64,000 nucleotides of DNA, taken from Bolinopsis microptera (lineage: Eukaryota > Ctenophora > Tentaculata > Lobata > Bolinopsidae). A program made the translations under genes and the position numbers. Below are positions 4,639 through 48,896 of this stretch, piece by piece. Position 1 is the stretch's first letter; each line of letters starts with the position of its first letter. The DNA lies in contig NC_087082.1 in the NCBI RefSeq assembly GCF_026151205.1, forward strand, positions 20,484,494 to 20,548,493. Direction: 5' to 3'. Under the pieces are notes generated by a model. It had not been told where the DNA came from. It did no database searches and was given only the letters and a program-made list of their open reading frames with translations.

Positions 4639-5122
4639 GGGGGGGGGGGGGGGGGGTTTTAGCCGGAGTGTAGTTTTTTTTGGGAGCAGGGGGAAAAATT
4701 TTTTTGGGGGACACGGACGGACATTTGGGGGTGGACCCGGACCCCGGGGCCCCTTTGGGGGACTCGACGGACATTGGTCACATTACGGGGCATTGGTTTT
4801 AAAATTAGCAAGGGCAAACATTTTGAAGGGAATTTTTTTGCAACTTCTAAATTTTTAAAATTTTTGTACAAAAAAAAACAAATTATTAAAACACACAAAA
4901 ACTATAAAAAGCTTTTAAATTTTTATAAACAAAAAAATTAAAAGGGGCCCAGGAAAAAGGGCCCGGGGAGGAGGAAAGGGGGACTGGGGGGGGAGGAGGG
5001 GCCGGGGAGCAAAGGGGGACGTAAAGGACTGTGAGGGGGGACTGAGGACGAGGAGGAAAGGGGTAAGGGGGGAGGACGGGAGGGGAGGAGGAAGAGGACT
5101 GGGGGGGATCAGGGAAAACCCA
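3484..5122. other. Low-quality, homopolymer-inflated segment with a local duplication
   Basis: Bases 3,469-3,600 are repeated imperfectly at about 3,793-3,925. The second copy differs mainly by expanded or contracted homopolymers and dropped bases. Beyond it the sequence fills with G and C runs, including an almost pure G run at about 4,583-4,656 and a GGA-rich stretch at 4,960-5,105. The Gly- and Pro-rich open frames here are by-products of these runs. No gene is supported. The pattern looks like uncorrected read sequence at an assembly join. Confidence 0.7.
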
Positions 5123-8100: not shown

Positions 8101-11100
8101 ATACCCTCTCAATTGAATTATGGTAACCATGGTAACACTAGGTTAACTAACAATATTCTCTCACTTGATCATGGTTTCATTGTACATAGGTTAATAACAA
8201 TACCTTCTGGAATCATTGGTAACCATGGTAAACACCTTTGGTTAAACTCACAATACCCTCTCGTAGAATTATGGTAAACATGGTTAACCAACTAGGTTAA
8301 TAACAATACCTCTCAGTAGATATTATGGAAACATGGTACACTAGGTTAACTAACAATCCCTCTCAGTAGAATCAAGGTACTATGGTAAAACTAGGTTAAC
8401 TAAAACAATACCCCTTCAGTAGGATTTATGGTAACTATGGTTTGGTAACACTAGGTTTTAACTAAACATACCCTCTCACTAGATCATGGTAACCATGGTA
8501 ACACTAGGTTAACTAACAATATTCTCTCATAGAACATGGAACCATGGTAACACTAGGTTAACTAACAATACCCTCTCACTAGAATCATGGTAACCATGTA
8601 AACTAGGTTAATAACAATAGTCTCCTCATCGAATCCATGGTAACATGGTTGATAACACTAGGTAACTATAAATAACCTATCAGTAGAATCTTGGTAAATG
8701 GTAAATAGGTTAAACTAACAATACCTCTCATAGAATCATGGTAACCATTGGTAACACTAGGTTAACTAAAATTTCTCTCACTAGATTCATGGGAACATGG
8801 GAAAACTAGGTTAACTAAAATACCCCTACCTAGAATATGGGTATCATGTAACACTAGGTTAACTAACCATCCCTTCTTAGATCTGGGTAACCCATGGTAA
8901 CACTAGGTTAACGAACATACCTCTCAGGCGAATAATGGTAACCATGTAACACTATGTTTAATTAAACAATACCCTCTCCCTGGCTCATGGTAATATGGTA
9001 ACACTAGGTTAACTAACAAATACCTTCAGTAGAATCATGGTAATATGGTAACACTAGGTTAATAAACAATACCTTCACTTGATCATGGTTAACCTGGAAC
9101 ATAGGTTACTAACAATATTCTCTCAGTAGAATCATGGTAAATGGTAACACTATGTTTATTAACAATACCCCTTCATAGATCATGGTTAACCATGGTAACA
9201 TAGGTTAACTAAAATATTTTCACTAGAATATGGTAACATGGTAACACTTAGGTTAAGTACAATTCTCTCAGTTGATCATGGTAACATGGTACATATAGGT
9301 TAACTAACCAATATTCTCTCCACTAGAATCATGGTAATTTGGTAACACTAGGGTAAACTAACAATACCTTCATCTCGAAAATGGTAACCATGGTAACCAT
9401 AGGTTTAATTAACAAATACCTCTCATAGAATTGGTAACATGGTAAACTAGGTTAACTAACAATACCCTCTCAGTGAAATCATGGTAACCATGGTAACACT
9501 AGGTTAATAACATACCCTCTTCAGTGAATCATAGTAAACCATGGTAACACTAGGTTACTAGCCAATACCCTTCACTAGAATCATGGTAACCATGGTAACA
9601 CTAGGTTAACTAAACAATACCCTCTCACTAGAATCATGGTAACCATGGTAACACTAGGTTAACTAAAATACTCTCAGTAGAATCATGGTAAACAGGTTAC
9701 ACTAGGTTAACTAACATACTCTCAGTAGAATCATGGTAACCTTGGTACACTAGGTTAACTAAAATACCTCTCAGTAGATATGGTAACCATGTACACTAGG
9801 TTAACTAACAAATACCCTCTAATGAATCGGTATAAAAAAAAAAACTAAAAAAAAAAACCATGTTACACTAGGTAACTAACTATACCCTCTCAGTAGAATA
9901 TGGTAACATGGGTTAACACTAGGTTACGAGCAATACCCATCTCACTAGAATCTGGTAACTTGGTAACACGAGTTAACTAACATTACCCTCTCACTAGAAT
10001 CATGGTAATTAGTGGGAACACTAGGTAACTAACAAATACCCTTCTCTAGAATATGGTTACCATGGTAACATTAGTTAAAACAATTACCTTCAGTAGAATA
10101 TGGGAACTTGGTAACACTAGGTTACTAAAATACTCTAGTAGAATCATGGTAACATGGTAACATAGTTTAATAACAGTACCCTCTCAGTAGAATCACTGGT
10201 AACCATGGTAACACTAGGTTAATAACAATACCCTCTACTGAATATGGTAACTATGGTAAACACTAGGTTAACTATCATATACCCTCTCACTAGATTCATG
10301 GTAAATACCATGGTAACATAGGTTAACGAACAATATTCAGTAGATAGAATCATGGTAACCATGGTAACACTAGGTTAATAAACAATACCCTCTCATCGAA
10401 TCATGGTAACATGTTAACACTAGGGTTAACTAACAATATTCTTACTAGCAATCATGGTACGTGGTAACACTAGGTTAACGAACAATTCCCTCTCACTAGA
10501 ATATGGTAACATGGTAACATAGGTAAACTAAACAATACCCTATCAGTAGTAGCTGTACCATGGTAACATAGGTTTAACTAACAATCCCTTCACTCTGAAT
10601 TGGGTTTACCATGTAACACTAGGTTAACATCAATACCTCTCAGTTAGACTCATGGTAACCATGTAAACTAGGTTACTAAACAATACCCTCTCACTAGAAT
10701 CATGGTAACATGGTAAACTAGGTTAACTAAATACCCTTCTCGTAGAATATGGTAGACCATGGGTAACACTTGGTTAACTAACAATACCTTTCATAGAATC
10801 ATGGGTAACTATGGTAAATAGGGTTAACTAACAATACCTTCACTCGAAATGGTATCCATTAGGTTAACACTTGTTATCTAAACAATACCTTCACTAGAAT
10901 CATGGTAACTATGGTAAAAACTAGGGTAACTACAATACCTCTCAATAGAATCATGGTATCTATGGTAACACTTAGGTTAACTTACATACCTCTCAGTTAG
11001 AATATGGTAACCATGGTAACCCTAGGTTAATAACAATACCTATCACTAGATCTGGTACACCATGGTACACTAGGTTAAACTAACAATACCCTTTCAGTAG

Positions 11101-14024
11101 AATCATGGTAATGGTAACACTAGTTAACTAACAATTCCCTTCATAGGTATCATGGGAACCATGGTAACATAGGTTAACTAAACAATTACCCTCTCACTAG
11201 AATCATGGTAACATGGTAACACTAGGTTAAATAAACAATACCCTCTCACTAGAATATGGTAACCATGGTAACATAGGTTAAATCTACAATCCTCTCATAG
11301 AATCATGGTAACCATTGGTTACACTAGGTTAACTACAATTACCCTTTCAGTTGAATATGGTAAACATGGTAACATGGTATATAACAATTCCTTCACTGAA
11401 TCATGGTATCCATGGTAAGAACAATAGGTTAACTAACAATACCTTCATTGAATATGTGTTACCATGGTAACACTAGGTTAAATAACAATACCCCTCTCAT
11501 AGATCTTGGTAACCTGGTAACACTAGGTTAAATAACAATTCCTTACTAGAATCATGGTAAATATGGTAAACATAGGTTATCTAACAATTACCCTCTCACT
11601 GAAATCATGGTACCATGGTAACACTAGGTTAACTAACAATACCTCTAACTGAATCAAGGTAACATGGTACATAGGTTAACTAACAATACCCTTCACTAGA
11701 ATATGGTAACATGGTAACACTAGGTTAACTAACAATACCCTGCTCGTAGAATCATGGTAAACTGGTAACACTAGGTTAAGACTAACAATACCTCTCAGTA
11801 GGAATCATGGTAACCATGGTAACACTAGTTTACATAGCAATACCCTTCATATTGAATTTGTAACATGGTAAACATAGGTTAATACAATACCTCTCACTAG
11901 AATCATGGTACCATGGTAACATAGGTTAACTAACATACCCTCTCACTAGATTTCATGGTAACCATGGTAACACTAGGTAACTCGCAATACCTTCAGTAGA
12001 ATCATGGTAAACTATGGTAACACTAGGTTATAACAATACTCTCACTAGAATCATATGGTAACCTTGGGTAAATAGGTGAATAACAATACCTCTCACTAGA
12101 ATCATGGTAACCATGGTAACACTAGGTTATCTAAAATACCTTCACTAGAATCATGGTATCCCATGGTAACACTAGGTTAACTACAATACCCTTCAGTAGA
12201 TATCAATGGTAACCTGGTAACATAGGTTAACTACAATCCTTCACTAGAATCATGGTAAAATGGTAAACACTAGGTTAATAACAATACCTCTCACTAGAAT
12301 GATGGTTACATGGTAACACTAGTAATAACAATACTTCAGTTGAATCACTGGTAACATGGTAACCTAGGTGTAAAATAAACAAATACCCTTCATAGAACAT
12401 GGTAAACCATGGTAACACTAGGTTAATAAAATACCCTCTCACTAGAATCATGGTAACTTATGGTAAAAACACTAGGTTAATAACATACCTCTCGTAGATC
12501 ATTGTAAACATGGTAACTAGGTAATAGAATACCTCTCATAGAATATGGTAACATGGTAACACTAGGTTAATAACAATATTCTCTCATGACTCATGGTAAC
12601 CATGGTTAACACTAGGTTAAAGATCAATACCTTCAGTAGAATCATGGTAAAATATGGTAAGCATAGGTTAACTAACAATATTCTTCTTAGATTATGGTAA
12701 CCATGGAAAACACTAGGTTAACTAACATATTCTATAACTAGAATCTTGGTAAACATGGTAACACTAGGTTACATAACAATACCCTCTCAGTTAGGAATCA
12801 TGGTAACTATTTTGTATACAATAGGTTAACTATCAATATTTCTTTCACTAGAATATGGGTAACCATGGTACACACTAGGTAAACTAAAATGCCCTCTCAT
12901 AGATTCTGGGTAATCTCCCTGGAAAACATTGGTTAACATAACAATACCTCTCACTAGAATCATGGTAACTATGGTAAACTAGGTTAACTAAACAATTACC
13001 TTCAGAGAATCATGGTAACCCTTGGTAAACACTAGGTTTAAACTAACAATACCTTCATAGAATCATGGTAAACACTATGGTACACTAGGTTACAAACAAA
13101 TACTTCATGATCATTGGTAACCATGTACACTCGGTTTATAGGCAATACCCTCTCACTGAATCATGGTAAACTTGGTTAACACTAGGTTAACTACAATACC
13201 ATCTCACGAGATCATGGTAACTATTGTAACACTTAGGTTAACTAAACACTTCCTTCCTAGAATCATAGGTAACCATGTAACACTAGGTTAACTACAATAC
13301 CCTCTCACTAGAAATATGGTAACCATGGTAAAACACTATGGTTAATAACATTTACCCTCTCAGTAGAATCTGGTGACATGGTAACACTAGGTTTAACTAA
13401 CAATACTTCAGTAGAAACATGGTAACCATGGTAAATCACTAGGTTATCTAACAATTACCTCTCAGTTGAATCATGGTATCTATGGTAACATTGGTTAACT
13501 AAAATACCTCTCAGTAGAATCATGGTAATTTTGGTAACACTAGGGGGTTAATAACTATACCTCTTAGTAGAATCATGGTAAACTATGGGTAACATAGGTA
13601 ACTAACAATACATTCACTAGAATCCATGGTAACCATGGTAAACCTAGGTAACTAACAATACACTGTCAGTTGATATGGTAACCAATGGTAACACTAGGTT
13701 AACTAACAATACTATCAGTAGAAGCATGGTAACTCTTGTATCATAGGTTAACTAAACTATACCCTCTCCACTAGAATCATGGGAACCATGGTAACAATAG
13801 GTTAACTAACAATATTCTTACTAGAATCATGGTAACCATGTAACTGGTTAACTAACAATTACCCTCTCACTAGAATATGGTAACCATTGGTAACATAGGT
13901 TAACTAACAATTTTCGCTCACTAGGAATCATGGTAACCATGGTAACATAGGTTAATAACAATACTCTCTCAGTAGAATATGTAACCTGGTAACACTGGTT
14001 AACTAACAATACCCTTCACTAGAA
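5123..14024. repeat. ~52-bp satellite array, about 8.9 kb
   Basis: Well over a hundred copies of one unit. The best-preserved copies (e.g. around 9,590-9,660) are 52 bp and carry, in order, TAACTAACAATACCC, TCTCACTAGAATC, ATGGTAACCATGGTAAC and ACTAGGT. The ATGGTAACCATGGTAAC core is nearly palindromic. Neighbouring copies differ mostly by single-base drops or doublings, so apparent unit length wavers around 47-53. Two A-rich runs interrupt it (about 7,904-7,931 and 9,834-9,858). No coding content. The right edge is sharp, at the start of the duplicated gene segment. Confidence 0.9.
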
Positions 14025-14366: not shown

Positions 14367-17300
14367 ACAGCAACCGTCTCTTTGTCGAACTTCTCAGACT
14401 ACAAAGCAAATGTCATATGCAAGAAGCTTGGTTACAATTATGCCGAGGATTGGTTTGCCTTAAATAACGAGTACTTTTGGGGAGCGATAGAAACCTGGTA
14501 AGGAACGCTTTATTTATCTATTTATAACTTTTTTAATGCTTAATGACAAATTTTGTTAAACCATGTTAAACCATGTTAAACCATGTTAAACCATGTTAAA
14601 CCATGTTAAACCATGTTAAACCATGTGCTTCTGTGAAAGCGGGGAAGCTTATGACTTAATTTTTATTAGAATTGATTATTTGATCAATGAACAGTGACTA
14701 AGTATTAAATTAACGAGCAAATTTCGATTTTGCGGCTTTGATAAAAATTGTCTGATTTTTATTTCATGTTCCGGTTTATTGATCACACAACTTTTCACTT
14801 TGCTCAATCCCGCTTCTCAAGATGCACCAAAATACGGCCTCTTTTACTCCTAAGCATTTAATTTCAATATCAACTTCAACTTGAGGACTGCTTCAACAAA
14901 AAATGTCTTTTAAAAGTTTAAACATAAACCGAATTATAATTGTGCAAGTCCACATAATGTTATCATAAATTAAATTCCAAACACAGGATCACTGTAATAT
15001 ATGATGCACCAGAAAGATATCAAGAAAGCCTGAACAATATCGATTACAATGAAAATACAGCTATGAGAAATTTGCTAGATCATGCTAGAGTGATGACAAA
15101 TTTTTCCTGTGATGAAACTAAAAGTGATTTTGATTTCGATAGCTGTTCTTATTTCTTGGAGAGGAGACATTTCGGTACGGGTAATAAATATACTAAATAT
15201 ACATTGGGACTTCTTTGCAATATACAGCCTGGTAAGTCCTCAACATGTCATATTTAAGTATTTATCTTAGCATATTTCTTTTTATTTGTTGTGTCTAATA
15301 ATTAATAATATAGAATATTAAAGAATATAAAAATGAACATTTGGAACTTATTTTCAGTTTATTCTTATTTTCACCTTTAGCGGCTGAAAAGGATTTACGC
15401 TGCACAGTGCACACTGGTTTTGAAGCAACATTGATATTCTTATTTCTTTAAAATTTATTCCAGGAGCGTGTAACATTGCCGAAACTAACGGATATTTCAA
15501 AAATGTTTGTCAACAAGACGAAAATTTTGAAATCATCGAATGCATTGATTCCTCAAAATATTACGTATATCTTCCACGTAAGCGACCGAAATCAGCAAAC
15601 TACCGCTACCCTGAAGTAACAAAGCTCTGTTCTGACGATCCTCGCGTTTATCAAGGTTGTATAGATGACGAGAAAAACGCCCTATCACTGATGTTACGAT
15701 CAGGAGACAATTCGAAATCTTTTTGTAACAGAAATTTTACGAAACAGATTGGGGTAGTAACACCTAATGTTTTCACCCTTATCCTTGATGATCCATTGAA
15801 TATGGGTTTTAGTATGACTAATTTTACTACATGTAATGGATTATGTGAAGTTCATGGTTGTCTTGATGAAGCGTTGTGTAATGGTTATCGTTATGGTACA
15901 TTTTGTGAGAGTATCACAAGTAATATGTCATATGTGAGCGCGCAACAAATATGCGATAGCAGAATTGATTGCGAAAGTGGTGAGGATGAAATTGGTTGTA
16001 ACGAGTACAATCATCATATGATAGATCTCTATACTGGTAGGAATGGTTTATTTAACATAAAACCTCGAGGAAATGAAGCCATCAATTATTTGGATTACAA
16101 AGATAACCTTGCCCAGAAAAAACTGTATGAAGATGTCAAAAAGAGCAAACAATGCCTTCCAACAATTAGGAATCCAATATCGAATTCAAAATGGAATCCA
16201 GAATCATCGTTCTCATACCGGAGGCTTTCTAATTTTACAAGATGTTCTGCGCTACTTATTTATAAATCGTTCTATATTGATCCATCAAGTATTAAATTGA
16301 AGCAAATTGATGGTGAGCCGTATGTGCCATACTGCAAATTCTACATGGACCAAACCAATTGTACGGACCCAATGAGAGGAGTAGTGTCGTGTAAGATTGA
16401 CGGCTACCCATCTACAGTGTCTAAATTTGCCACCTGCGTTCAGAACCCAGGTTTGTGCGATGATGGATTCGACAGCCTATGCTTGACAACCAGTCGAACT
16501 TGTAATGTCCATAAGCATCGATTCTGCAATGGAATTTCGGACTGTTCCGATAAAAGTGATGAAACATCCAAGATCTGTGACAGAATGACTTTGTCTACAT
16601 GTTCCCGCCGATATCTTCACGACACAAAACTTCCCATACCCATCTCTTGGCTGATGGACGGAAGTAAAGACTGTCTAAAAGGAGAAGACGAAACAGAAAT
16701 CTGGCCAACATGTGGAATCGGCAGATTGTCTCGTTATGTGCCTGACAGCAGTAAATGTGAAGATGTTTACATATGCAGCCCAAGATCGTACCATTATGTA
16801 ATGTTCCAAGATCTGTGTAACGGTTATGACATTTGCGATCATGCAAGAGTTTGCGGTCAGACTAGATCATCCGAACATGTTTTCACAAACCCCATCGCCA
16901 TTGGAACAAGAAATCAATTGGAATTTCTTATACATTGTGTTGCCGGAGTGAGTACAAGTTTAGGTCACTATATATCACAATGCGTCAAAGAAGATTTCTT
17001 GCCAGTCTCAATTTTTGGACTCGACGGTTTACCAAAAATAGTTTTACCAGAGACCATGGTAGACTGCACAAACGTATATGGAAGAGTGTACGTTTATCTT
17101 AGTTGCTTGAAAAAATGCAAAGAGCAGCCTGTTTGTCCATTGCGACCACTTAACTATGACTCATGTAAGATTGATAATCAATACGTGGACAGGATTTTTA
17201 CAATGCCAATAGAGAATAAGAATCGCCTGACATTTTTAAATAAAAATAAGAAAAGTGGACGGTATCAAAATAACATATTTCTCTGCAACAACGATAGATG

Positions 17301-19065
17301 TGTCGATTATGACAAAGTTTGCAATTTGGTAGACGATTGTGGCGATAGCTCAGATGAAGATACATGTATTAACAACTTTTTATGCATATCTTCAAAACGC
17401 TTCATTGGACAGAGCCAGAAATGTGATGGGAAAATAGATTGTCCTGACTACACCGACGAGTGCAATGAGGACTGTAGAACAACAATTATTTCAAAACTCT
17501 CTCTAAAGGTTTTCAGTTGGGTCGTTGGTTGTGCAGCAGTTATCCTAAACTCTGTCAAACTTTTTAAGAATTTTAGACACCTGGCAACCAGACATTTTAC
17601 GTCTGCATTGAACAATAAAGCTCTGACAACTGTCATTCATATTGGGGATCTAATAACGGGACTGTACCTGTTAACCATTACTATTTTAGACTCAGTCATC
17701 TTTGCGGAATCATACTGTAAAGAAAGATATAATTGGTTATCCAGTGATGGGTGTGCTTTCTTGGGAGTGTTCAGTTCATTCGGTGGTCAAATATCCCTCT
17801 TTTCAATGACAGTTCTTAGCATATTTAGGGCTATCGGTATCATCAAAGTCCAAAAACTGACATCCAAAAATGCAGCTGCAAAAATGTTCATCTTCATCGC
17901 GATAATGTCAATTGCATCATTTTGTCTATCCTATATCCCCTTAATGGTCCGATATGAGGATATCTTTGTCAATGGCATGACATATAATCCAAACATTACA
18001 ATATTTCCAGCATTTGTGACCAAAGACATGCACATTAACAAGATAAGCAAGTATTATGGAAGACTCGTTGACTCTGCAGTGTACACTTGGGCAAAAATCG
18101 ATAGTTTGATAAGCCCAATGTTTTCAAACCAATATGGAGGCATAGGGAGACGCAAAGTTCACTTTTATGGCAATGATGGCGTTTGTCTGTTCAAATACTT
18201 TGTATCAAGAGAAGACCTACAAAGAGTTTATGTATGGTCAAATCTAACCCTGTATTTTGTGTGTTTCACCATCATATTTATCTGCTACAGCAAGGTTTTG
18301 TTCTTTACAAAGAGCTCAAAACAACGAGCTAGAATGTGCAATCACAAAGCCCAAAATAGACGCTCAAGAGATAAAGAGGAATCCAATCTTCAAATAGCCC
18401 TCATAATTGCGACAGATTTCTTTTGTTGGGTCCCTTTTATATCGGTGTGTATGTTGCATTCTTTTGAATTAATGGATGCTACAGCCTTGTATCCAATATC
18501 TTCGATCGTGATTCTACCAATAAATTCTGTTATAAATCCCATTCTATATCATGATTACATAATCGTGACAATCAAGTTGATGGTAAAGAAAATTAGATAT
18601 TGGGTATCTCTATTTTACATGTCTTATATAAGACGATGTTTACTATCGATAAACAAATTCGCTAGAACTATAAGAAAGAAAAGAGATGTGGAAAGAAACG
18701 TCGCCATGACTCCGCAATCCGCTTTCAATGCAAATGAGCTGTCAGGACAAAATGAAGAAATCAGAACTTGTAATAATAACAAAACTGTCAACAAGGAAGA
18801 TTCTACTTTTTTGCACAAAAATGATGATACTATGGACTTGGATTCTGCTTCAAAATCAGATATCACAAAAAAGAATTCCGCCACATTGAATAAAACAGAA
18901 ACTGAATATTCTAAAATTTTCCTAACAGGAAAAGTTTTCGCGAGCAAATTCAGTATTACGCAAACGATATTGACAACCATTCCTGAAGAATGCGAAACAT
19001 CTCAAAACGAGGATTTTAATTCAAAAAATATCTTGGAAAAAGATAAAGGAAAAAGGAAAGGCTAG
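14367..19065 (+). pseudogene. LDLa/SRCR seven-transmembrane receptor, 5'-truncated copy A
   Basis: Four exons fit with conserved phases: 14367-14497, 14987-15231, 15464-19065, with donors GTAAGG and GTAAGT and acceptors ending CAG. The first two encode the second part of an SRCR domain (NVICKKLGY motif). The third is open through to a TAG stop; its longest stretch from 15,691 is 1,124 residues. It encodes LDLa-like modules (CDSRIDCESGEDEIGC, CNGISDCSDKSDETSKIC, CNLVDDCGDSSDEDTC, CDGKIDCPDYTDEC), then seven helices ending in NPILY, then a Ser/Lys-rich tail. Family knowledge: the helix-2/3 region (DLITGLYLL, GCAFLGVFSS) resembles LGR/GRL101-type receptors. The exons that supply signal peptide, two LDLa, TSP1 and the SRCR start in copy B are absent; upstream there is only satellite and the contig end. 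It is probably a truncated copy, though its frame is undamaged. I list three exons; any fourth upstream exon is missing. Confidence 0.75.
14555..14624. repeat. 10-bp intronic minisatellite (GTTAAACCAT)7
   Basis: Seven perfect tandem copies of GTTAAACCAT within the intron after exon 14367-14497. The same place in copy B (near 39,595) has only one diverged copy, so the array expanded in copy A after duplication, or contracted in B. Confidence 0.9.
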
Positions 19066-34050: not shown

Positions 34051-35781
34051 ATGAATTTTATACTTGTTGGTGCTCTCGTGTGTTGGCTGTTTCATTTGAC
34101 ATACGAAACAGGTGAGCGTTCGTTTTTAATTTTATCCACATGTTTTAAATCATGTATCTAATTCTAAAATTCTTTTATTAAATCGATCTGTTTTGTTTAA
34201 GCAGTAGTAATCATTAACTATCTATGGCTCAGAAAAAGAAAATGATTTTCCCTTAAATTAAAAAGGCTGCATGGTACTTTAGCCATGCTGATTGCCGCTC
34301 CTCTTTGTCATATCACTTCAACTTCATTTAAGATAATGAACACAAGACTTATTTTGTAAATTGTATTGATATGAAATTCACCGGCAAATATTTGTACTTC
34401 TGGGTCAAGTCATATAAAATCTATGTATGATAAATATGCATAAATCTCTCGAAAACTGTGTACATTAATTTTGCCTTGTTATTCAATCAGTTTGTGCGAA
34501 TGGCAGAGAACCATGTTCAGATGGTGACGGTTGTATCCTAACAAAATGGTTGTGTGACGGAGAAGAAGACTGTAATGACGGATCGGACGAGGATGATTGT
34601 GACGGTTTGTTTGAACTTAATCTTTGTTTGACTGTGCCAAACCATGTTTGACCAACAAACTAGGGCCAGTGACCGAACTTTCCTTTTTTTTTTTCAAATT
34701 TTGGCTCAATTCTTTCAAATAAACTAATCAGAGTCAATATAAATACAATTGCATTATCACTGGCCCTATAGTACTAGTAGAAGGCCTTACAATTCTCTGC
34801 TACACATTAACAGATTTGGCGACATTACCATTGCACTTGACATAATATGGTATATAAAAGTATAAAGATGTAACACATTAAAGGCCCTCTGGCCTTAATG
34901 TCTTATAATGATTGAATAATTATGGAAACAGTTCAGCGAAACTCAGAGTCCAACAATTGTGTTAACCCGACTTAATTTAGCTTTGGTTTTCAATCAGTGT
35001 GTGTGGGAGATGGTTTGACAAAATGTAGAGATGGCAACGGTAAATGTGTCCGAGACGCTATCTATTGCGACGGAAATGTAGACTGCGCCGATGCATCGGA
35101 CGAGGATGGATGTGAAGGTTTGTTTAAACAGTTAAACGTAATCTTTGTTCCACTTTGCCCCCAACCGTGTGCTAAAATACACGAAATATTTACATCAAGT
35201 GAGACAGTCAGGCCAAGTTAAATTACGTAATCAATGCATGAGGTCAATTTAACTATAGGATCAACAGGGATAGTAAGTGGAAATAAATGGAAAGAGCCAG
35301 AAACAAACAAAACCGGAAAACAATTTCAACCAGAATACCCCAACTACATAATATGTAGTTGTTCTAAAAAAGGTGTTTGATTTGAAAATGGCGCGAGTGA
35401 TGGTCAACGAATTTCATAAGAATAAATTTGGGCTAGACAGACTTGGTCTATGGGCAGACCGGAAGAATGTTCGATTGAACCAAGTGCTAGTTCTTAATAA
35501 TCATTTAAGTATGTAGTTAGTTGAACCACATATTCGACAAACATATTATTATTATACTTTTTCTGGTCATATACTATACATGACTGTTTCAGGTCTTGAA
35601 AGATTTTCTTGGGGTGATTTCTATAGCTGGTCAAATTGTTCAGCAGAATGTGGAGGAGGCACTAGATCCAGATATAGGACGTGTACAAATAAAATTACCA
35701 ATTTAGATGTTTTTGGTGAAAGGTCATATTGTAAAGGGAATAGCACCGAATACCAAATCTGCTACGCAAAGAAATGCCCAG
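34051..35781 (+). CDS. N-terminal exons of mosaic receptor: signal peptide, LDLa, LDLa, TSP1
   Basis: Four exons: 34051-34111 ([20 protein letters not shown], a signal peptide), 34491-34604 and 34998-35117 (one LDLa module each, ending [11 protein letters not shown] and [11 protein letters not shown]), and 35593-35781 (thrombospondin type-1 repeat with [19 protein letters not shown]). Every junction is phase 1, the classic signature of shuffled extracellular modules. Both LDLa exons use the same unusual donor GTTTGT; the TSP1 exon uses GTAAGT. LDLa modules bind calcium and often ligands; TSP1 repeats bind matrix or glycans (family knowledge). The next compatible exon is at 38,908, after an intron invaded by a LINE fragment, so I infer these exons belong to the 38,908-44,984 receptor. 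A separate short secreted protein is the alternative. Confidence 0.7.
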
Positions 35782-37500
35782 GTAAGTGTAACAAAACAAT
35801 GATTTTAATTTGGCAATAAGTTTTACCAACATTGTTTTTGCAAATATATAATACTAGTGTAATCACTGCTGCAGTTAAAATACTATAATACCTTGTCTTC
35901 TGAGTGCTGAGCGCGATAATTCCCGACAGCTTGCTGGAGGGAACGCGCGGGCACGAAATATTATTTGTTTTGAAACTTGCCGCCAGTCAGTCTGAGTCTA
36001 TGCTGATAATACCTTCGCTTCCCTTGCGGGATATATCTGCAAATTATCAGCTCTCGGTGTCCCCGAGTTTTAGTGGATATAATTCCCGGAACACTGGCGT
36101 TCTATATATTAGACACTATATTGTATCATGCGCACGTATCACATTACACCCCTTCCAATCGGAACCGGAATGTATTATAAAGAGTAGGAGTATTTACCCG
36201 CTGTACCACGACTATTACACCTCATCACCCCCGTCTTGAGCCGCCTTCCATTTTTATTTAAATTGTTTTAGAATTAACCCTTTTTAACTCCGCACCACAC
36301 CCGCCTATTATATTTGAAAACACGCATAACATTTTCGTATGAAAGTATGAATAGAACTTTCTCTGCAGTCCAAATAGACCGCTTTAAGTGCGATCCCCCT
36401 AATAAGCTTAATGCTTATAGTATTATCTTGTGGCTAACCTTATTATGATTCATGTACCAACGCTACATAAAATGTAGTAATGGGAAAGAGACTGAGAGAG
36501 CGAGGAGGGAGAAAAAGACATAAAGCCATTTTATGTCACATTTGTGGTGGCGGTGCAAAACCATCTAATCAATTAAACCGACCACCGACCAATTTGAAAA
36601 ACCTTATTTATTTGGCTTTGTCAAAGTTTTGTTGAAAATATACCGAAAAAACCAGTCCCGTAACTCTTACCGTTTTCTCGATTAAGCCGCTCGGTAATTA
36701 TACGCGCACACACAGTACAGACACGTACACACACACAGACACATACTCTGAGATTATTGTTTAAGATACTAGTGTAACCCGGCCTTTGGTCGGGATTTCA
36801 CTGCTGCAGTTAAAAAGTGAAAAGGGTAGGAGTATTTAACCGAGGGAAGCAGTAACACATGAAATGCACATAATCGCATAATCAGTTCTTTCTCGTGGAT
36901 AATGAAGTCATTATTAACAGAGGCGGCTATTGAGGGCGTCCAGGCGTCCGTGGACGCCCATCTGGTGGCTGGTGCTTAAAAATAGAAATAGTGATTAGTA
37001 ATAGTGTTCGGAAATATCTTATCGCAATATAAAGCTCTTTAACTTTAAGTTTATTCACCCAAACATTCGAATGAAAGCGCACGCATGATCTTTGTGAAAT
37101 TTTGTGATGTTGGTTGTCCAATCTTACGTTTGGACGACTAAGCCTAGCCGCGCAGTTTTAACACATAGTTAATTGTAAAATGTAAACGGTACAAAGCACA
37201 TCAAGTGCATCCCACTACAGGTAATTTGTATGATTTGCTCGTCCAGGACACCTTGCAATTTGAACTATCGACTGTTATGATACTGCGTTGTAGGTTTACA
37301 ACCTACCAGGAGCGCGCCGAGTTGGACTCGTCGACGGTCCTAATATATGGAACAAATATTTTACGAGTATCACCTGTTAATTGTTGGCGCACGGTGCTGA
37401 ACTGACCAAGTACATTGTTAATTTCACCATGTACGTATCCCATGGGATACGTACCACTAGGCGTACTAATTGATATATAAATATAAACAAAAGCTCTAAG
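35782..37500. other. Large intron, no gene seen
   Basis: Intron between the TSP1 exon and the SRCR exon. It holds no supportable coding sequence. Bases 37,382-37,475 match 22,138-22,215 (a dispersed repeat ending near CCCATGGGATACG). There is a short CA-rich run near 36,725-36,745. Confidence 0.5.
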
Positions 37501-38741
37501 AAACAGATAGTAAACAAAGTAAACATTTCTGTCCCCTAATCTTTCTCAAACAAAAGTCATGCAATTTGCATACTTCTCCATTTAACTCTATTCTGAGCGA
37601 TTAAAGTTAAATTGTTTAAATCACATAAATTATTTAACGATAATTTTCGAACACTAAGGTCGTGTAGAATCAGTGAGAAAAGGTTTGACTGCGGTCTTCC
37701 ACGCCGCCCTTGAAGCTGTAAGGTGTTAACAGCAAAAACAAGCGACGAATAGGCTGGACCATCTGTAGGCCCACGCAGTACATGTCCGAGCATCCTCCAC
37801 CGACTACGAGCCACTTTAGCTGACAATGGTTCGCTATTGCAGCGTTTATACAAGTTCTTGTTGGAAATGATGTGAGGGTATTTGTAATTCAAAATTGATC
37901 GCAGATGACGTCTGTGAGCAATATCTAGTTTTTCCAATACTGATTTAGGGGCAGCCCAGCAAGATGAATTGTACATTAAAACGGATACTACCAGAGCCTC
38001 ATACAACAGAAGCCTCTTGCTCAGAGGGATCTTATGGTTCCAAGCTTTCTTGTATTTGTTAAACGCGGCATATCCCAGACATATCCTTCTAGAGATGTCC
38101 TCCTTACTACAAAGCATGGAGCCAAGCGTGATACTCTTTCTCCAGAGCTCGTTCCCTGCAATTGGCTTACCCTGATCGTCTTTAGCTCCCTTTTCAGCTA
38201 AGTACACATGAGTGAAATCAGTTTTGTCTTCGTTAACGAAGAGATTCCAATCTTTAAGGACTTCTGTTGCAATAGGCAACAGCTCCCTCAAATTGTCCTC
38301 ATCTTCATCATTGAAGTCGATATCATCAGCATACTCACTGTCAAGTGGAAGACCGATATCGGTGATAGGTGGGTTAGGCCTATTCATTGCAGTTTCAAGC
38401 CTGTTACGGAGGTCACGCAAGGCACCCGCTAAGACAAGTGTGAACAAACATCCAGACAGACAGTCACCTTGGAATGCACCGAGAAAACTCTGGAATTCAG
38501 CGGACAGTGTACCGTTGATATTGACTTTGAGCTTGGTGTTGGAAAGCAAAAGTCTTACCAAACGGACTTCGTCATCATCACAGCCACACTCAACAAGAAG
38601 ATCGAGGATGGTAGATCGTCGTATAGTGTCAAAGGCACTAGACATATCGATCCCCATACGATGGTATTCCCACCTCTTCCTCTGGACAACTGATAACATC
38701 ACACGCTGGCACCATACAATGTCAGCACATGATTGTGGTTA
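37501..38741 (-). mobile_element. 5'-truncated LINE fragment inside the receptor intron
   Basis: A minus-strand non-LTR reverse transcriptase fragment. The readable frame runs from about 38,741 to 37,557 with RT motif A (GIDMSSAFDTI), the region FLGAFQGDCLSGCLFTL, the catalytic EYADDIDF, and a C-terminal RSRWRMLGHVLR segment. Motifs N-terminal to A and the endonuclease are missing, so it is 5'-truncated. It lies antisense to the host gene within an intron. No clear target duplication was recognised. It is a different family from the LINEs at 28,880 and 49,241. Confidence 0.85.
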
Positions 38742-38907
38742 CATAGAAATATACACGATTTTTGAGCGGCCATCCACAATAGAAAAGCGGCCGCATTTCT
38801 TGTTATACTGCATCTCTTTCGTTCTCTTAGAGTTAGTAAATAAGGGTTTTTAAAAGATCTGAATGTCTTCGACCAAATTTCATCTAAAGCATTGCTTACT
38901 ATTACAG

Positions 38908-41900
38908 ATGAAGTTCAATTTGCTCTTTACGGGACGGATGGTAAACCGAGCAACGGAAGCGCTGGAGTAGTTTTGGTTAAAGTGCTTAACCGGGTCTGGC
39001 TACTAATGTTTTATATTGTATTACATTTATTGTAACTGTCTTTGTGAAAGTAACTACTAAACTAGTATAAAGGCCCCGTGAACGAATATTTAATATTATG
39101 TTACATCTTTATAATATGTGTATTTCAAAACGTTTGTAACTGCACCAGCTCAAGGAATAAAAAAGTTATCTGAAAATATTGAAGGAGATTGCAAAATGTT
39201 TATAAATATTTACAAACATTTTGCAATCTCTATCAATATTTTCAGATAAAATTTGTATTCCTTGAAATGGTGCAGTAACACCAAACACACCTTTTGAAAT
39301 ACACATATTATAAAGAAAACCACTTGTATGTGGTTGCCCTAGTCGAAGAAAAATATATTTGAAACATATCTAAAATGTGGCAATATTTTTCATCAGTTTT
39401 TGTTTTCAGACAGCAACCGTCTCTCTGTCGAACTTCTCAGACTACAAAGCAAATGTCATATGCAAGAACCTTGGGTATGATTATGCCGAGGATTGGTTTG
39501 ATTTAGACAACGAGTACTTTTGGGGAGCGATACAAACCTGGTAAGGAACGATTTATTTATAACTGTTTTAGTGCTTAATGACAAATTTTGTGGCGATGTT
39601 AAACAATGTGCTTCTGTGAAAGCGGGAAAACTTTTGGCTTAAGGGGGCCGGGGGGGTCTTCATCAAAATTTTCTCGAAATTGATTTTATAGTTGTTTCTG
39701 ATAGAGGGGAGTAATATCTATCAACTGCTTTTGGTCCCATGGAAAAATATTGTTCCTAGCCGAAATTATCGCGCGATTGAAAATCGCTCGCGCAATACAA
39801 TTTCCATGGGACCAAAAGCAGCTGATAGATATCACTCCCCTCTATCAGAAACAACTATAAAATCAATTTCGAGATAATTTTGATGAGGACCCCCCCCCCC
39901 CCCCCGCCGGCCCCACATCCAGAAAGTTTTATATTTCCTCCCAGATGTGTCTTTTTCTAAATTCTGTGGCTTTTTTCTGTGGCCCGCTCGCTTTGCTCTC
40001 AAATTTTTAACACTGGACCAATTCACGAGCAGGGACGTAGCCAGGATTTTTCTTTGGGGGGGCTGTCGGCGAGCGAAGCGAGCCGACGCGTCCAATCCAG
40101 CTGCGCAGCGAGTGAAGCAAGCTGTGGAAGGGGTCTGGGGGCACAGCCCTCAGCGGGGTCCAGGGGCGGAGCCCCTTGACAAATTTTTGCGAAATAGGGT
40201 TTTTTAGACGACATTTGGCATTAAAGAAATTTGTAGGACAGCAATAAACTGGGATTGAAAAGAATCAAGTACTCACGTAAATTTGGTAACTTCACAACAG
40301 CAATCTGCATTCTCCAATCAGAATATTTCACTGTGTTCCAAAACTGACAGGATGTTCCTCTTTGATTTTTATACAATCGAAACATTTTCTTCAAAAATTT
40401 CCTCAATTAATTTGTCTTTATTCCAAAAAAATATTTCGAAATTTAGGAGTAACTTCTCAAAAATTTCCTCTTTTTCCTCCCGTTTTTTCCTCCCGAAAAA
40501 AATTTCCTCCCAGGCTGCCTGGCAAGATGGCGTGTTTCTAGATGTGGGCCGCCGGCCCCCTTAATTTTTATTAGAATTGATTATTTGATCAATGAATAGA
40601 GACTTTGTAATTGTATTAAATTAACGAAAAAATTTTGATTTTGCGGCTTGGATCAAATTTTTCTGATTTTTATTTCATATTGCGGTTTATTGATCAAATG
40701 CAAAACCTTTCATTTTGCTCAATCCCGCTTCTCAAGATGGTCCAAAATACGGCCTCTTTTACTCCTAAGCATTTAATTTCAATATCAACTTTAACTTGAG
40801 GACTGCTCAAACAAAAAAATCTCTTTTAAAAGTTTAAACATTAACCAAATTATAATTGTGCAAGTCCATATAATGTTCTCATAAATTAAATTCCAAACAC
40901 AGGATCACTGTATTAGATGATGCACCAGAACGATACCAAGAAATCCTGAACAATATCGATAACAATGATAATACAGCTATGAGAAATCTGCTAGATCATG
41001 CTAGAGTGATGACAAATTTTTCTTGTGATAAAACTAAAAGTGATTTTGATTTCGATAGCTGTTCTTATTCCTTGGAGAGAAGACATTTCCGTACGGGTAA
41101 TAAATATAATAACTACACACTGGGACTTCTTTGCAATATACAGCCTGGTAAGTCCTCAACATGTCATATTTAAGTATTTCTCTTAGCATATTTCTTTTCA
41201 TTTGTTGTGTCTAATAATTAATAATATAGACCATTAAAGAATATTAAAATGGACATTTGGCACTTCTTTTCAGTTTATTCTTATTTTCACCATTAACGGC
41301 TGAAAAGGATTTACGCTGCACAGTGCACACTGGTTTTGAAGCAACATTAATATTGTTATTTCTTAAAAAATTATTTCAGGAGCGTGTACCGTTGCCGAAA
41401 CTAACGGATTTTTCAAAAATGTTTGTCAACAAGATGACAATTTTAAAATTATCGAATGCATCGATTCCTCAAAATATTACGTATATCTTCCACGTAAGCA
41501 ACCGAAATCAGGAAACTTCCTCCGCTCTGATGTAACAAAGCTCTGTTCTGACGATCCTCGTTTTTATCAAGGTTGTATACACCACCAGCCCAGCACTACA
41601 CTCATAGAGTTGCTATCAGGAGACAATTCGAAATCTTTTTGTAACAGACATTTTACGGAACAGATTGGGGTAGTAACACCTAAGGTTTTCACCCTAACTA
41701 TAGAATATGAAACACCTAATATGGATTTTAGTATGACTAATTCTACAACATGTAATGGATTATGTGAAGTTCATGGTTGTCTTGATGAAGCGTTGTGTAA
41801 TGGTTATCGTTATGGTATATTTTGTGAGAGTATCACAAGTAATATGACATATGTAAGCTCGCAAAAAATATGCGATAGCAGACTTGATTGCGAAAGTGGT

Positions 41901-44900
41901 GAGGATGAAATTGGTTGTAACGAGTACAATCATCATTTGATAGATCTCTATACTGGTAGGAATGGTTTATTTAACATAAAACCTCGAGGATATGACGCCA
42001 TCAATTATTTAGATTACAAACATAACTTGGCCCATAAGGAGTTGTATGAAGATGTCAAAAAGAGCAAACAATGCATTTCAACATGGAATCCAATATCGAA
42101 TCCAAAATTGAATCGAGAATCATCGCATGTATTGTTCCCATACCGGAGGCTATCTAATTTTACAAGATGTTCTGCGCTAATTATTTATAAATCGTTCTAT
42201 TTTGTTCAATCAAGTAACAGAATGAAGCAAGTTGAAGGTGAGCCGTATGTGCCATACTGCAAATTCTACATGGACCAAACCAATTGTACGGACCCAATGA
42301 GAGGAGTAGTGTCGTGCATGATTGACGGATACCCATCTACGATGTCTAAATTTGCCACCTGCGTTCAGAACCCAGGTTTGTGCGATGATGGGTTTGACAG
42401 CCTATGCTTGACAACCAGTCACTCTTGTACTGTCCATAAGCATCGATTTTGCAATGGAATTTCGGACTGTTCCGATAAAAGTGATGAAACATCCAAGATC
42501 TGTGACAGAATGACTTTGTCTACATGTTCCCGCCGATATCTTCACGACACAAAACTTCCCATACCCATCTCTTGGCTGATGGACGGAAGTAAAGACTGTC
42601 TAAAAGGAGAAGACGAAACAGAAATCTGGCCAACATGTGGTATCGGCAGATTGTCTCGTTATGTGCCTGACAGCAGTAAATGTGAAGATGTTTACATCTG
42701 CAGCCCTAGATCGTACCATTATGTAATGTTCCAAGATCTGTGTAACGGTTATGACATTTGTGATCATGCAAGAGTTTGCGGTCAGACTAGATCATCCGAA
42801 CATGTTTTCACAAACCCCATCGCCATTGGAACAAGAAATCCATTGGAATTTCTCATACATTGTGTTGCCGGAGTGAGTACAAGTTTAGGTCACTATCTAT
42901 CACAATGCGTCAAAGAAGATTTCTTGCCAGTCTCAATTTTTGGACTCGACGGTATACCAAAGATTGTTTTACCAAAGACCATGGTACACTGCACAAACGT
43001 ATATGGAAGAGTGTACGTTTATCTTAGTTGCATGAAAAAATGCAAAGAGCAGCCTGTTTGTCCATTGCGACCACTTAACTATGACTCATGTAAGATTGAT
43101 AATCAATACGAGGACAGGATTTTTACAATAGAGAATAAGAATCGCCTGACCTTTTTAAATAAAAATAAGAAAAGTGGACGGTATCAAAATAACATATTTC
43201 TCTGCAACAACGATAGATGTGTCGATTATGACAAAGTTTGCAATTTGGTAGACGATTGTGGCGATAGCTCAGATGAAGATACATGTATTAACAACTTTTT
43301 ATGCATATCTTCAAAACGCTTCATTGGACGGGGCCAGAAATGTGATGGGAAAATAGATTGTGCTGACTACACCGACGAGTGCAATGAGGACTGTAGAACA
43401 ACAATTATTTCAAAACTCTCTCTAAAGGTTTTCAGTTGGGTTGTTGGTTGTGCAGCAGTTATCTTAAACTCTGTCAAACTTTTGAAGAATTTTAGACACC
43501 TGGCAACCAAACATTTTACGTCTGCATTGAACAATAAAGCTCTAACAACTGTCATTCATATTGGGGATCTAATAACGGGACTGTACCTGTTAACTATTGC
43601 TATTTTAGACTCAGTCATCTTTGCGGAATCATACTGTAAAGAAAGATTTAATTGGTTATCCAGTGATGGGTGTGCTTTCTTGGGAGTGTTCAGTACATTC
43701 GGTGGTCAAATATCTCTCTTTTCAATGACAGTTCTCAGCATATTTAGGGCTATCGGTATCATCAAAGTCCAAAAAATTACATCCAAACATGCAGCTGCAA
43801 AAATGGTCATCATCATCGCAATAATGTCAATTGCATCATTTTGTCTAGCCTATATCCCCTTAATGGTCCGATATGAGGATATCTTTGTCAATGGAATGAC
43901 ATATAATCCAAACATTACAATATTTCCAGCATTTGTGACCAAAGACATGCACATTAACAAAATAAGCAAGTATTATGGAAGACTCGTTGACTCTGCAGTG
44001 TACACTTGGGCAAAAATCGATAGTTTGATAAGCCCAATGTTTTCAAACCAATATGGAGGCATAGGGAGACGCAAAGTTCACTTTTATGGCAATGATGGCG
44101 TTTGTCTGTTCAAATACTTTGTATCAGGAGAAGACCCACAAAAAGTTTATGTATGGTCAAATCTAACCCTGAATTTTGTGTGTTTCACCATCATATTTAT
44201 CTGCTACAGCAAGGTTTTGTTCTTTACAAAAAGCTCAAAACAACGAGCTAGAATGTGCAATCAAAAAGCCCAAAATAGACGCTCAAGAGATAAAGAGGAA
44301 TCCCATCTTCAAATAGCCCTCATAATTGCGACAGATTTCCTTTGTTGGGTCCCTTTTATATCGGTGTGTATGTTGCATTCTTTTGAATTAATGGATGCTA
44401 CAGCCTTGTATCCAATATCTTCGATCGTGATTCTACCAATAAATTCTGTTATAAATCCCATTCTATATCATGATTACATAATCGTGACAATCAAGTTGAT
44501 GGTAAATAAAATTAGATATTGGGTATCTATATTTTACATGTCTTATATAAGACGATGTTTACTATCGATAAACAAATTCGCTAGAACTAGAAGAAAGAAA
44601 AGAGATGTGGAAAGAAACGTCGCCATGACTCCGCAATCTGCTTTTAATGCAAATGAGCTGTCAGGACAAGATGAAGAAATCAGAACGTGTAATAATAACA
44701 AAACTGTCAACAAGGAAGATTCTACTTTTTTGCACAAAAATGATGATACTATGGACTTGGATTCTGCTTCAAAATCAGATATCACAAAAAAGAATTCCGC
44801 CACATTGAATAAAACAGAAACTGAATATTCTAAAATGTTCCTAACAGGAAAAGTTTTCGCGGGCAAATTCAGTATTACGCAAACGATATTGACAACCATT

Positions 44901-44984
44901 CCTGAAGAATGCGAAACATCTCAAAACGAGGATTTTAATTCAAAAAATATCTTGGAAAAAGATAAAGGAAAAAGAAAAGGCTAG
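38908..44984 (+). CDS. SRCR/LDLa seven-transmembrane receptor, copy B (main part)
   Basis: Exons 38908-38981 (or to 38993; both keep phase), 39410-39540, 40903-41147 and 41380-44984. Joined to 34051-35781 they give an uninterrupted frame of about 1,512-1,516 residues. The first three exons form an SRCR domain (NGSAGVVLVK ... NVICKKLGY ... LGLLCNIQ). The last exon carries several LDLa-like modules (acidic CxxxxDCxxxxDE signatures), degenerate Cys-rich spacers, seven hydrophobic helices, NPILY at the end of helix 7 (about residue 1,336) and a ~175-residue Ser/Thr/Lys-rich tail. Helices 2-3 resemble LGR/GRL101 receptors, but there are no leucine-rich repeats. The helix-3 motif is SIFRAI: Arg kept, acidic neighbour lost. 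It would sit in the plasma membrane as an LDLa-bearing GPCR; the ligand is unknown. It is 1,124 residues and open over the region shared with copy A. Confidence 0.82.
39105..39317. repeat. ~100-bp inverted repeat (foldback) in intron
   Basis: 39,105-39,205 (TTTATAATATGTGTATTTC ... GCAAAATGTTT) is followed almost at once by its reverse complement to 39,317. Copy A (14,110-14,215) has only the left arm and then a different continuation, so the second arm was added in B or replaced B's original sequence. Confidence 0.85.
39643..40560. mobile_element. Non-autonomous TTAA-target DNA element (composite foldback)
   Basis: 918 bp flanked by TTAA on both sides (39639-39642, 40561-40564). Copy A has an uninterrupted site (GACTTAATTTTT near 14,652), showing an insertion with a TTAA duplication, as in piggyBac-type elements (family knowledge). 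The ends share GGGGGCCGG. The left 275 bp form an almost perfect hairpin (39,643-39,765 against 39,790-39,915). A second repeat-like block at 40,030-40,195 (GGGACGTAGCCAGGATTTTT) is nested inside. No transposase is encoded. Confidence 0.8.
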
Positions 44985-47669: not shown

Positions 47670-48184
47670 TTAACACAATTATATTATAAGGCTTCGAAAG
47701 TCTGGGATCCATGAATCCCGGGGTTCCGCGGGGTAAAAATTAATTGATTCAGTTGCTTCCGGACAATTCTTGTTTAGCCCTGTAACATTGCCCTGTTACA
47801 GTTTTGGTAATCCAGCCGTATCCCTGGCTGGAGCCAAAACTTATAAAATTCGAAAATCCTCCCCTTACCAACTTTATGGTTTATTGACCCAGATTATACA
47901 ATGCTGGCAATAAACCTCAAACTAGTTAACACATCATCACCACCACTTTTCCATTCATAGGGTGATCCACATTATTGTTTATTTTGTTTGACGATGCTTG
48001 TTTATGTATTTAGCCCCTGCCATTTTACGTTGCATTTATCCGAGTCTTTTATTAGTACAAAAGGTCAATCATAAATTAACGATCATTTTATATCCGTAAT
48101 AAAGTAATAAGCTTCGAGATGGCCAGGCCTACTCTCATGCTGTCTATATGTGATGATTAATTCTGAAAAACTAGGGACAACTGG

Positions 48185-48256
48185 GGAATGATCCCAGAAC
48201 CTCGAGATTTCGCGTCTCTTGCTCTACCAATTGAGCTACTGACCCTGATTCTCAGA
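48185..48256 (-). repeat. tRNA-like cloverleaf in repeat unit 1
   Basis: Minus-strand copy of the 72-base cloverleaf described at 48897-48968. It lies in the middle of the 345-bp unit rather than at its head. Confidence 0.6.
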
Positions 48257-48529
48257 GCGAAATCACCACTCATATACAGCACAATTTCATGCTTTGTGTG
48301 GAATATCATTTATCAGTTATTTAGAATATATATTCGCATTTATCCACACTATATTTACATTACACGTACAACGTGATATCGTTATCAGTGCAGTGTGTAC
48401 AACACCAACTACACCGATCAATTGCCAATCTGCGAAACATTTAATTATTATTATCACTTCGAGATGGCCAGGCCTACTCTCATGCTGTCTATATGTGATG
48501 ATTAATTCTGAAAAACTAGGGACAACTGG

Positions 48530-48601
48530 GGAATGATCCCAGAACCTCGAGATTTCGCGTCTCTTGCTCTACCAATTGAGCTACTGACCCTGATTCTCAG
48601 A
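48530..48601 (-). repeat. tRNA-like cloverleaf in repeat unit 2
   Basis: Second direct copy on the minus strand, 345 bp from the first, apparently identical in sequence. Confidence 0.6.
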
Positions 48602-48896
48602 GCGAAATCACCACTCATATACAGCACAATTTCATGCTTTGTGTGGAATATCATTTATCAGTTATTTAGAATATATATTCGCATTTATCCACACTATATT
48701 TACATTACACGTACAACGTGATATCGTTATCAGTGCAGTGTGTACAACACCAACTACACCGATCAATTGCCAATCTGCGAAACATTTTGGATGTGTGGAT
48801 AAATGCGAATATATATTCTAAATAACTGATAAATGATATTCCACACAAAGCATGAAATTGTGCTGTATATGAGTGGTGATTTCGCTCTGAGAATCA

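Follow-up and report, generated by a model that had tools for sequence, protein, structure and literature searches.

Structure of the receptor locus

We analysed a 64,000-nucleotide stretch of the genome of the ctenophore Bolinopsis microptera (contig NC_087082.1, here C11, positions 20,484,494 to 20,548,493), referred to below as the window, and in particular eight exons on its forward strand at positions 34,051-44,984. Joined at introns that are all GT-AG, these exons form a single open frame of 1,516 residues and a stop codon, and from its sequence the locus reads as one gene for a seven-transmembrane (7TM) receptor with LDLa, TSP1 and SRCR-like modules ahead of the membrane core. An initial annotation made from the letters alone had proposed eight exons in one frame with compatible phases and about 1,512 residues; this model stands, with the length changed to 1,516 after adjustment of splice sites. 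The parts of the gene are as follows.

34051..34111, forward strand: exon 1, start codon and hydrophobic, signal-peptide-like leader (residues 3-21, by hydropathy)
34491..34604, forward strand: exon 2, first LDLa module, phase 1-1 (Pfam and paralogues)
34998..35117, forward strand: exon 3, second LDLa module, phase 1-1 (Pfam and paralogues)
35593..35781, forward strand: exon 4, TSP1 module, phase 1-1 (Pfam, 35.4 bits, and paralogues)
35782..38907, forward strand: intron 4, 3.1 kb
37557..38738, reverse strand: reverse-transcriptase open reading frame (ORF) within intron 4, 393 residues (RVT_1, 51.4 bits)
38908..38993, forward strand: exon 5, start of the SRCR-like unit, phase 1-0
39410..39540, forward strand: exon 6, core of the SRCR-like unit (ICKNLGY), phase 0-2
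40903..41147, forward strand: exon 7, end of the SRCR-like unit, phase 2-1
41380..44984, forward strand: exon 8, about 1,201 residues, encoding a cysteine-rich region, more LDLa modules, the class A 7TM core and the cytoplasmic tail

The donor of exon 5 is an unusual gtctgg. In the nine other loci compared, a phase-0 GT stands at this place every time (gtctgg, gtttgg, gtttga, gtaaga or gttaga), read in three of the nine at three bases past the printed border of the match. Left unspliced, exon 4 runs into a stop after 12 further residues (ORF 35517-35819). A first exon like that of the window is also present in two related loci, L013 and L015.

Exon order in related loci

The assembly (264.65 Mb) was searched with exon 8, which gave 39 scored matches of 746 candidates (99% to 40% identical), and with exons 1-7, which gave 126 of 1,174, supplemented by tblastn in the upstream stretches. 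Reading these results by hand, we found the complete order LDLa-LDLa-TSP1-exon 5-exon 6-exon 7-exon 8 at nine loci, one of them the window gene, with all exons of a locus sharing a strand. The loci are spread over five contigs: C11 carries four (20.52, 18.44, 18.46 and 5.03 Mb), C3 carries two (at 16.34 and at 2.18 Mb), and C13, C6 and C1 have one apiece. The matches to the second LDLa and to TSP1 on C3 and C1 are partly weak (E 1e-4 to 0.09), and the locus at 18.46 Mb on C11 has a stop codon within exon 8.

Neighbouring exons also succeed one another on the same strand when the matches are taken row by row: TSP1-exon 5 and TSP1-exon 6 in 11 of 13 rows each, exon 5-exon 6 in 11 of 12, exon 6-exon 7 in 14 of 14, exon 7-exon 8 in 14 of 17, second LDLa-TSP1 in 10 of 12 and first LDLa-second LDLa in 8 of 15, while for none of the seven pairs was an opposite-strand neighbour found within the set distance in the tested rows. 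Of the 14 rows with a TSP1 match beginning at query residue 97-100, 13 were used (C13:2544802, at 38% identity, was set aside), and the 16 exon 8 rows all have at least 52% identity; the test omits TSP1 rows that start later, including two at C1:4.00 that are each followed by exon 5 in L013, and on C1:21.4 it omits two LDLa rows that were merged. Paralogues have matching splice borders and phases wherever a match extends to the border; several rows end before it. In L012 the gap that matches intron 4 measures 4.6 kb and in L014 about 1.4 kb, against 0.3-0.4 kb in L007, L010, L011, both arrays of L013, L015 and L016.

Because the exon order recurs in nine loci, with same-strand succession and agreeing borders, it is unlikely, judging from these paralogues, that 34,051-35,781 and 38,908-44,984 are separate genes, which the initial annotation had named as the outcome that would overturn it.

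Two further observations concern particular loci. The nearest relative of the window gene, L007 (C11:18.44 Mb), is 99.3% identical over 38,880-41,562 but only 82% over the exon 4 region (35,570-35,846). This seam falls within intron 4, which carries the reverse transcriptase; it suggests, from one pair, that outer and inner receptor halves may recombine or convert independently. Separately, exons 1-7 occur twice in tandem at L013 (C1:4002300-4011299), at a distance of about 5 kb and with almost the same peptides; only the second array was seen to be followed by an exon 8, and the first is not among the nine loci.

Domains of the predicted protein

In a Pfam scan reported to E 1 (HMMER filters discard most matches above E ~0.1), the protein scored 91.3 bits for LDLa over seven stretches (cut-off 24.1), 35.4 bits for TSP_1 (cut-off 21.6) and 54.8 bits for 7tm_1 (cut-off 30.5); three distant family members reached 41.8, 43.3 and 53.3 bits for 7tm_1, all above the same cut-off. 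The scan found no leucine-rich repeat (LRR) family in the window protein at E up to 1, and Pfam none in the distant members at E up to 0.1 (two members) or 0.01 (the third). GPS, GAIN and 7tm_2, by which an Adhesion G-protein-coupled receptor (GPCR) would be recognised, were likewise not found in the window protein at E up to 1, nor are GPS and GAIN in the Pfam lists of the three distant members. Hydropathy marks the leader and, once windows that overlap are joined by eye, seven membrane segments between residues 999 and 1,340; the loop from helix 4 to helix 5 is about 95 residues long.

The unit encoded by exons 5-7 calls for more care. The whole-protein Pfam scan lists no SRCR, and exons 5-7 are not among the best 150 of 344 SRCR candidates in the genome. 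A home-made profile, built from eight SRCR-like stretches that were picked by hand ahead of related receptors, three at a single locus, scores exons 5-7 at 37.9 bits in total and 28.4 bits for the best single stretch, and BLASTP against one such stretch at L019 gives E 1e-7 as a single comparison, with 15 of 40 residues identical. We read these exons as a divergent SRCR-like unit. The module order leader-LDLa-LDLa-TSP1-SRCR-LDLa(n)-7TM, as first annotated, is accordingly backed by Pfam for LDLa, TSP_1 and 7tm_1, with the SRCR-like part below the cut-off.

The seven-transmembrane core

When the core was compared with PDB sequences by phmmer, the eight best matches were relaxin receptor 1 (RXFP1, E 2.3e-10), the LH/CG receptor (LHCGR, two), the TSH receptor (TSHR, four) and one unnamed receptor; rhodopsins rank after these eight. 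The description of an LGR-like seven-helix core without LRRs is therefore upheld by the best PDB matches and by the lack of LRRs in Pfam.

Class A receptors carry D/E-R-Y/W at the end of helix 3 and NPxxY in helix 7. In our alignment of 13 family rows, the helix-3 Arg, which we take to be position 3.50, is invariant, and NPxxY is kept in 12 rows, the remaining row having NPLIN. Family members share a long, well-conserved loop between helices 4 and 5, in which the cysteine stretch FYGNDGVC of the window protein aligns with YYGTNGVC of RXFP1. By these likenesses the window protein looks like a class A GPCR whose core is closest to the relaxin and glycoprotein-hormone receptors.

A large receptor family

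Two probes of 118 and 119 residues, taken from the long loop together with helix 5, each returned scored matches for 150 of 150, out of 374 and 383 candidates. Together they mark at least 187 distinct loci, spread over contigs C1-C13; this minimum takes in fragments and some loci with stops, and should not be read as the number of intact genes. PMC11797021 and PMC11184263 report 13 chromosomes for ctenophores. The glutamate receptor (iGluR) locus L037 of the same genome has chains of ML032222a, a Mnemiopsis protein, as its three best solved relatives, and L036 has kainate receptor 2 chains on top with ML032222a lower in the ranking. The ML032222a domain itself matches best at C7:3.24 Mb, where its two halves are 75% and 72% identical; this fits a ctenophore that is probably not Mnemiopsis leidyi, a reading that gaps or gene loss could distort. 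Tandem groups are present, for example seven receptor places at C7:10.05-10.36 Mb whose loop-2 regions are 99-100% identical and which would therefore reflect either very recent duplication or redundancy in the assembly.

The best 150 of 344 SRCR candidates, all over the cut-off, were placed against the 187 receptors at distances of up to 15 kb. Six receptors have such candidates upstream and one has them downstream (there they lie upstream of its tandem neighbour), in each case on the receptor's own strand; none has any on the opposite strand. The richest case is L038 (C7:16.55 Mb), where five SRCR and three TSP1 ORFs over the cut-off precede a 1,074-residue LDLa-7TM exon; candidate phase-1 acceptors, among other candidates, start seven of these nine ORFs (one after frame correction), and two have none. 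At L039, one SRCR over the cut-off and others recognised by eye stand before a 1,167-residue ORF with a receptor match, and at L035 an SRCR-like stretch, seen by eye where Pfam lists no SRCR, shares an open frame with the 7TM core. A genome search for TSP_1 (best 150 of 746 candidates) returned mostly long TSP1 arrays, with one match within L038, and C-type lectin modules gave 25 matches (51 of 51 candidates scored). Two receptor matches, at C13:8504623 and C13:12383893, lie in frames of 2,315 and 2,049 residues, against 1,000-1,250 commonly, and possibly have more modules in one exon.

In a tree of 22 last-exon proteins, the 11 rows labelled LDLa-LDLa-TSP1-SRCR fall on one side of a branch (99/99). 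The labels were assigned by hand: outer modules were seen for nine of the 11, L006 having only the second LDLa and TSP1 nearby, and L003 and L005 were labelled by kinship; long branches meet in this tree, as the program warned. From the sequences, the family core seems to consist of an SRCR-like unit, a cysteine-rich and LDLa-bearing region and the 7TM part, with the LDLa-LDLa-TSP1 head seemingly a feature of one clade. On the same grounds, the family most likely arose by a lineage-specific radiation, its members having an LGR-type-C-like core and other modules in place of LRRs for ligand binding.

Constraint along the protein

Nei-Gojobori-style counts of nonsynonymous against synonymous change (dN/dS) were made between the window copy and members on C6, C3 and C1. 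The ratio was 0.33, 0.23 and 0.18, respectively, for the 7TM core, 0.14, 0.14 and 0.12 for the membrane-near LDLa, and 0.97, 0.57 and 0.28 for residues 5-130 of exon 8; in the C1 pair, dS was 0.82 (7TM), 1.26 (LDLa) and 2.02 (residues 5-130), the last two being saturated. Pooled over the five C11 copies, the uncorrected ratio of proportions (pN/pS), taken over all pairs, which are not independent, was 0.22 for the LDLa, 0.51 for the 7TM core, 0.63 for residues 131-600 and 0.85 for residues 5-130. Since the ratios of the core and the LDLa lie below those of the outer part, the 7TM core and membrane-near LDLa are, by these counts, more constrained than the outer part.

Possible function

On balance we favour a receptor with an LGR-type-C-like core that lacks LRRs and whose LDLa, TSP1 and SRCR-like modules would bind a macromolecular ligand. 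Such a receptor would operate in the manner of type C LGRs (RXFP, GRL101), with these modules taking over binding from the LRR part. An extracellular macromolecule, be it microbial, from prey, from the matrix or on a cell surface, would bind the outer, faster-changing modules; the conserved membrane-near LDLa and the long helix 4-5 loop would relay binding to the 7TM core, which may couple to G proteins through the kept Arg 3.50 and NPxxY. Phase-1 module exons, local duplication and recombination within introns could join new outer parts to the constant core. Literature that bears indirectly on such a function includes PMC8242945, PMC6208332 and PMC12716839.

Several results weigh against this proposal. 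Exons 5-7 scored alone against Pfam SRCR reach 22.9 bits (E 1.1e-4), below the cut-off of 26.1, and the window copy of the unit has four cysteines by hand count. The small share of receptors with a nearby upstream SRCR (the six noted above) points the same way, as does a pattern scan of the 8 kb upstream of L017-L021, which found SRCR in four of five (not L021) and TSP1 and LDLa in none of the five, so that the full mosaic is not a rule of the family. A structure prediction that covered 1,070 exon 8 residues and used an alignment of the two window copies gave a mean predicted local distance difference test (pLDDT) of 26.9 and a predicted template modelling score (pTM) of 0.20. None of the 13 alignment rows has an acidic residue before Arg 3.50 (F, Y, A, V or T stands there instead), and G-protein coupling might therefore be unusual. 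Constraint on the 7TM core is looser in recent pairs (dN/dS 0.27-0.72), and older pairs bring residues 5-130 down to the 0.57 and 0.28 given above, the latter with saturated dS, which implies that the outer part too is constrained over long times. No test showed positive selection; single ratios above 1 occur, such as 2.18 (16 changes against 2), but too few changes lie behind them for us to read them as signs of it.

Three alternatives concern the type of ligand; they were judged apart and are not mutually exclusive. The family may serve chemosensation or the sensing of prey rather than immunity, with the outer modules still binding, a role that we regard as possible though doubtful. The size of the family, its spread over C1-C13 and its tandem groups speak for it. 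SRCR and TSP1 modules are, to our knowledge, untypical of chemoreceptors, which counts against it. Further in its favour, a GRL101-like receptor is reported as enriched in the sensory tentacles of starfish (PMC6267866), and ctenophore GPCR clades are described as having radiated independently, with GPCR copy number differing between Mnemiopsis species (PMC13231562).

A family for recognition of pathogens or of self with direct G-protein output appears somewhat less probable again. TSP1 and LDL are among the domains in the legend to Fig. 3c of PMC11797021, a source that also reports a rise of eight of 12 responding SRCR genes upon re-exposure to Vibrio, and PMC12297450 describes a cluster of GRL101-like receptors, bearing LDL and lectin-like domains, in a snail schistosome-resistance region; the faster evolution of the outer part of exon 8 relative to the core in most pairs would also fit. 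Against this, the link to immunity runs through domain content only, the same legend names no 7TM under panel c (7TM and GPS appear under panel d, on lectins; PMC11797021), and in the snail it is an adjacent RING-IAP gene, and no GRL101 gene, that contains the validated and top variants (PMC12297450).

We think it unlikely that the window protein is a receptor for a secreted peptide hormone in the manner of RXFP1/2, with an insulin/relaxin-like or cystine-knot ligand and the extra modules as accessories. Its nearest solved relatives are RXFP1, LHCGR and TSHR, and PMC8286064 argues for an insulin-like ligand of GRL101; yet the LRRs that bind hormone in those receptors were found by Pfam neither here nor in the three distant members, and at least 187 loci stand against one orthologue per LGR type as reported for ambulacrarians in the same source.

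If the favoured reading, modules binding a macromolecule above an LRR-less core, is true, LGR-like signalling cores can be uncoupled from hormone binding by LRRs and gain other binding parts. It would also provide concrete candidates for sensing microbes, prey or kin in a lineage reported to be without canonical Toll-like receptors. The family may form a large share of ctenophore GPCRs, given that 538 full-length GPCRs were used for Mnemiopsis (PMC9525235), a comparison in which our loci include fragments and the species differ.

State of the locus and its surroundings

Two further questions concern the window copy itself, and some of the features that bear on them lie upstream of the gene.

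14367..19065, forward strand: second receptor copy, with exon 6 (from 14367), exon 7 (14988-15230) and exon 8 (15463-19065), found by tblastn
5122..14023, strand not assigned: 51-bp satellite array, ending beside the start of homology of the second copy (14040)

Exon 8 of the second copy is 91% identical to that of the first and lies in a 1,213-residue ORF. Its exons 1-5 have no tblastn match in the window, and the satellite is a possible reason for their loss.

That the window copy is decaying or silent while the family functions seems improbable to us: a retroelement sits in intron 4, the exon 5 donor looks weak, and a truncated sister copy and a satellite share the window, but 1,516 codons are free of stops and the donor is GT in all nine other loci compared. 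Least credible of all, and by a long way, is the idea that the locus encodes two neighbouring genes, or yields a short product of its own, with LDLa-LDLa-TSP1 secreted as one protein (34,051 to 35,819) next to an SRCR-LDLa-7TM gene (38,908-44,984), for although the reverse transcriptase in the 3.1-kb gap, the identity seam against L007, the early stop of unspliced exon 4, which makes a short secreted product conceivable for this copy, and the second copy without exons 1-5 all lean that way, order and strand are identical in nine loci on five contigs, the gap is 0.3-0.4 kb in seven arrays, the phases are compatible and the tested rows hold no opposite-strand neighbours.

Other features of the window lie outside the receptor copies.

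1-450: perfect (GACCCT)75, about 0.34 Mb from the end of C11
23860-31217 and 49283-52227: retroelement ORFs, namely a 1,455-residue protease/reverse transcriptase/RNase H/integrase frame, and separate reverse-transcriptase and endonuclease frames
48112-49178: three tRNA-Ser(CGA) genes within direct and inverted repeats that are perfectly identical (unit of 345 bp; inverted arms 386 nucleotides long, 100% complementary)
56735-59254 and 60866-61648: two open frames, 839 and 260 residues long, with no Pfam match at E 1e-4

The (GACCCT)n repeat was considered as a telomere repeat and rejected, as none of the five contig ends inspected carries it.

Comparison with known receptors

Among known receptors, RXFP1 and RXFP2 (type C LGRs) share with the window receptor the most similar class A core, LDLa in the ectodomain and the cysteine stretch in loop 2. 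They differ from it in that the window receptor has no detected LRR, several LDLa, and TSP1 and SRCR-like modules; compared with RXFP1, it also has about 65 more residues from helix 4 to the loop-2 stretch and has lost the acidic residue before the helix-3 Arg. Like GRL101 of Lymnaea (LGR type C2), for which PMC8286064 reports six LRRs and twelve LDLa, the window receptor places many LDLa ahead of an LGR-like 7TM core; unlike it, and set against it by description only, it has TSP1 and SRCR-like modules and no detected LRR. Measured by what defines these groups, the core similarity of the LGR family is found here and an LRR ectodomain is not, and of the GRL101 features LDLa and 7TM are found and LRRs are not.

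The GRL101-like receptors of the Biomphalaria SudRes2 region, as described in PMC12297450, resemble the present family in forming clusters of paralogues and in adding a recognition module, there C-type lectin-like, to LDL and 7TM parts; they have LRRs together with the lectin-like module and not TSP1 or SRCR, and number 12 clustered genes against at least 187 loci here. In Mnemiopsis, also a ctenophore, the LGR-like CKHR is described with 20 LRRs (PMC4079206), of which none was found in the window receptor. SRCR modules on a GPCR N-terminus are known from amphioxus and sponge, and in the literature that we found, the GPCRs with scavenger-receptor modules are Adhesion receptors (PMC2246102, PMC4302439), whereas the window receptor belongs to 7tm_1 and has no GPS or GAIN in Pfam.

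The open-licence literature yielded no class A receptor in which LDLa and 7TM are combined with TSP1 and SRCR, which agrees with the initial annotation, whose author knew of LDLa-7TM receptors but of none with this combination, although a description elsewhere is possible. The same annotation had gone on to suggest that this could be a new ectodomain class for recognition or immunity. Such a role is possible. The receptor is better called a new ectodomain variant on a known receptor type than a new receptor class.

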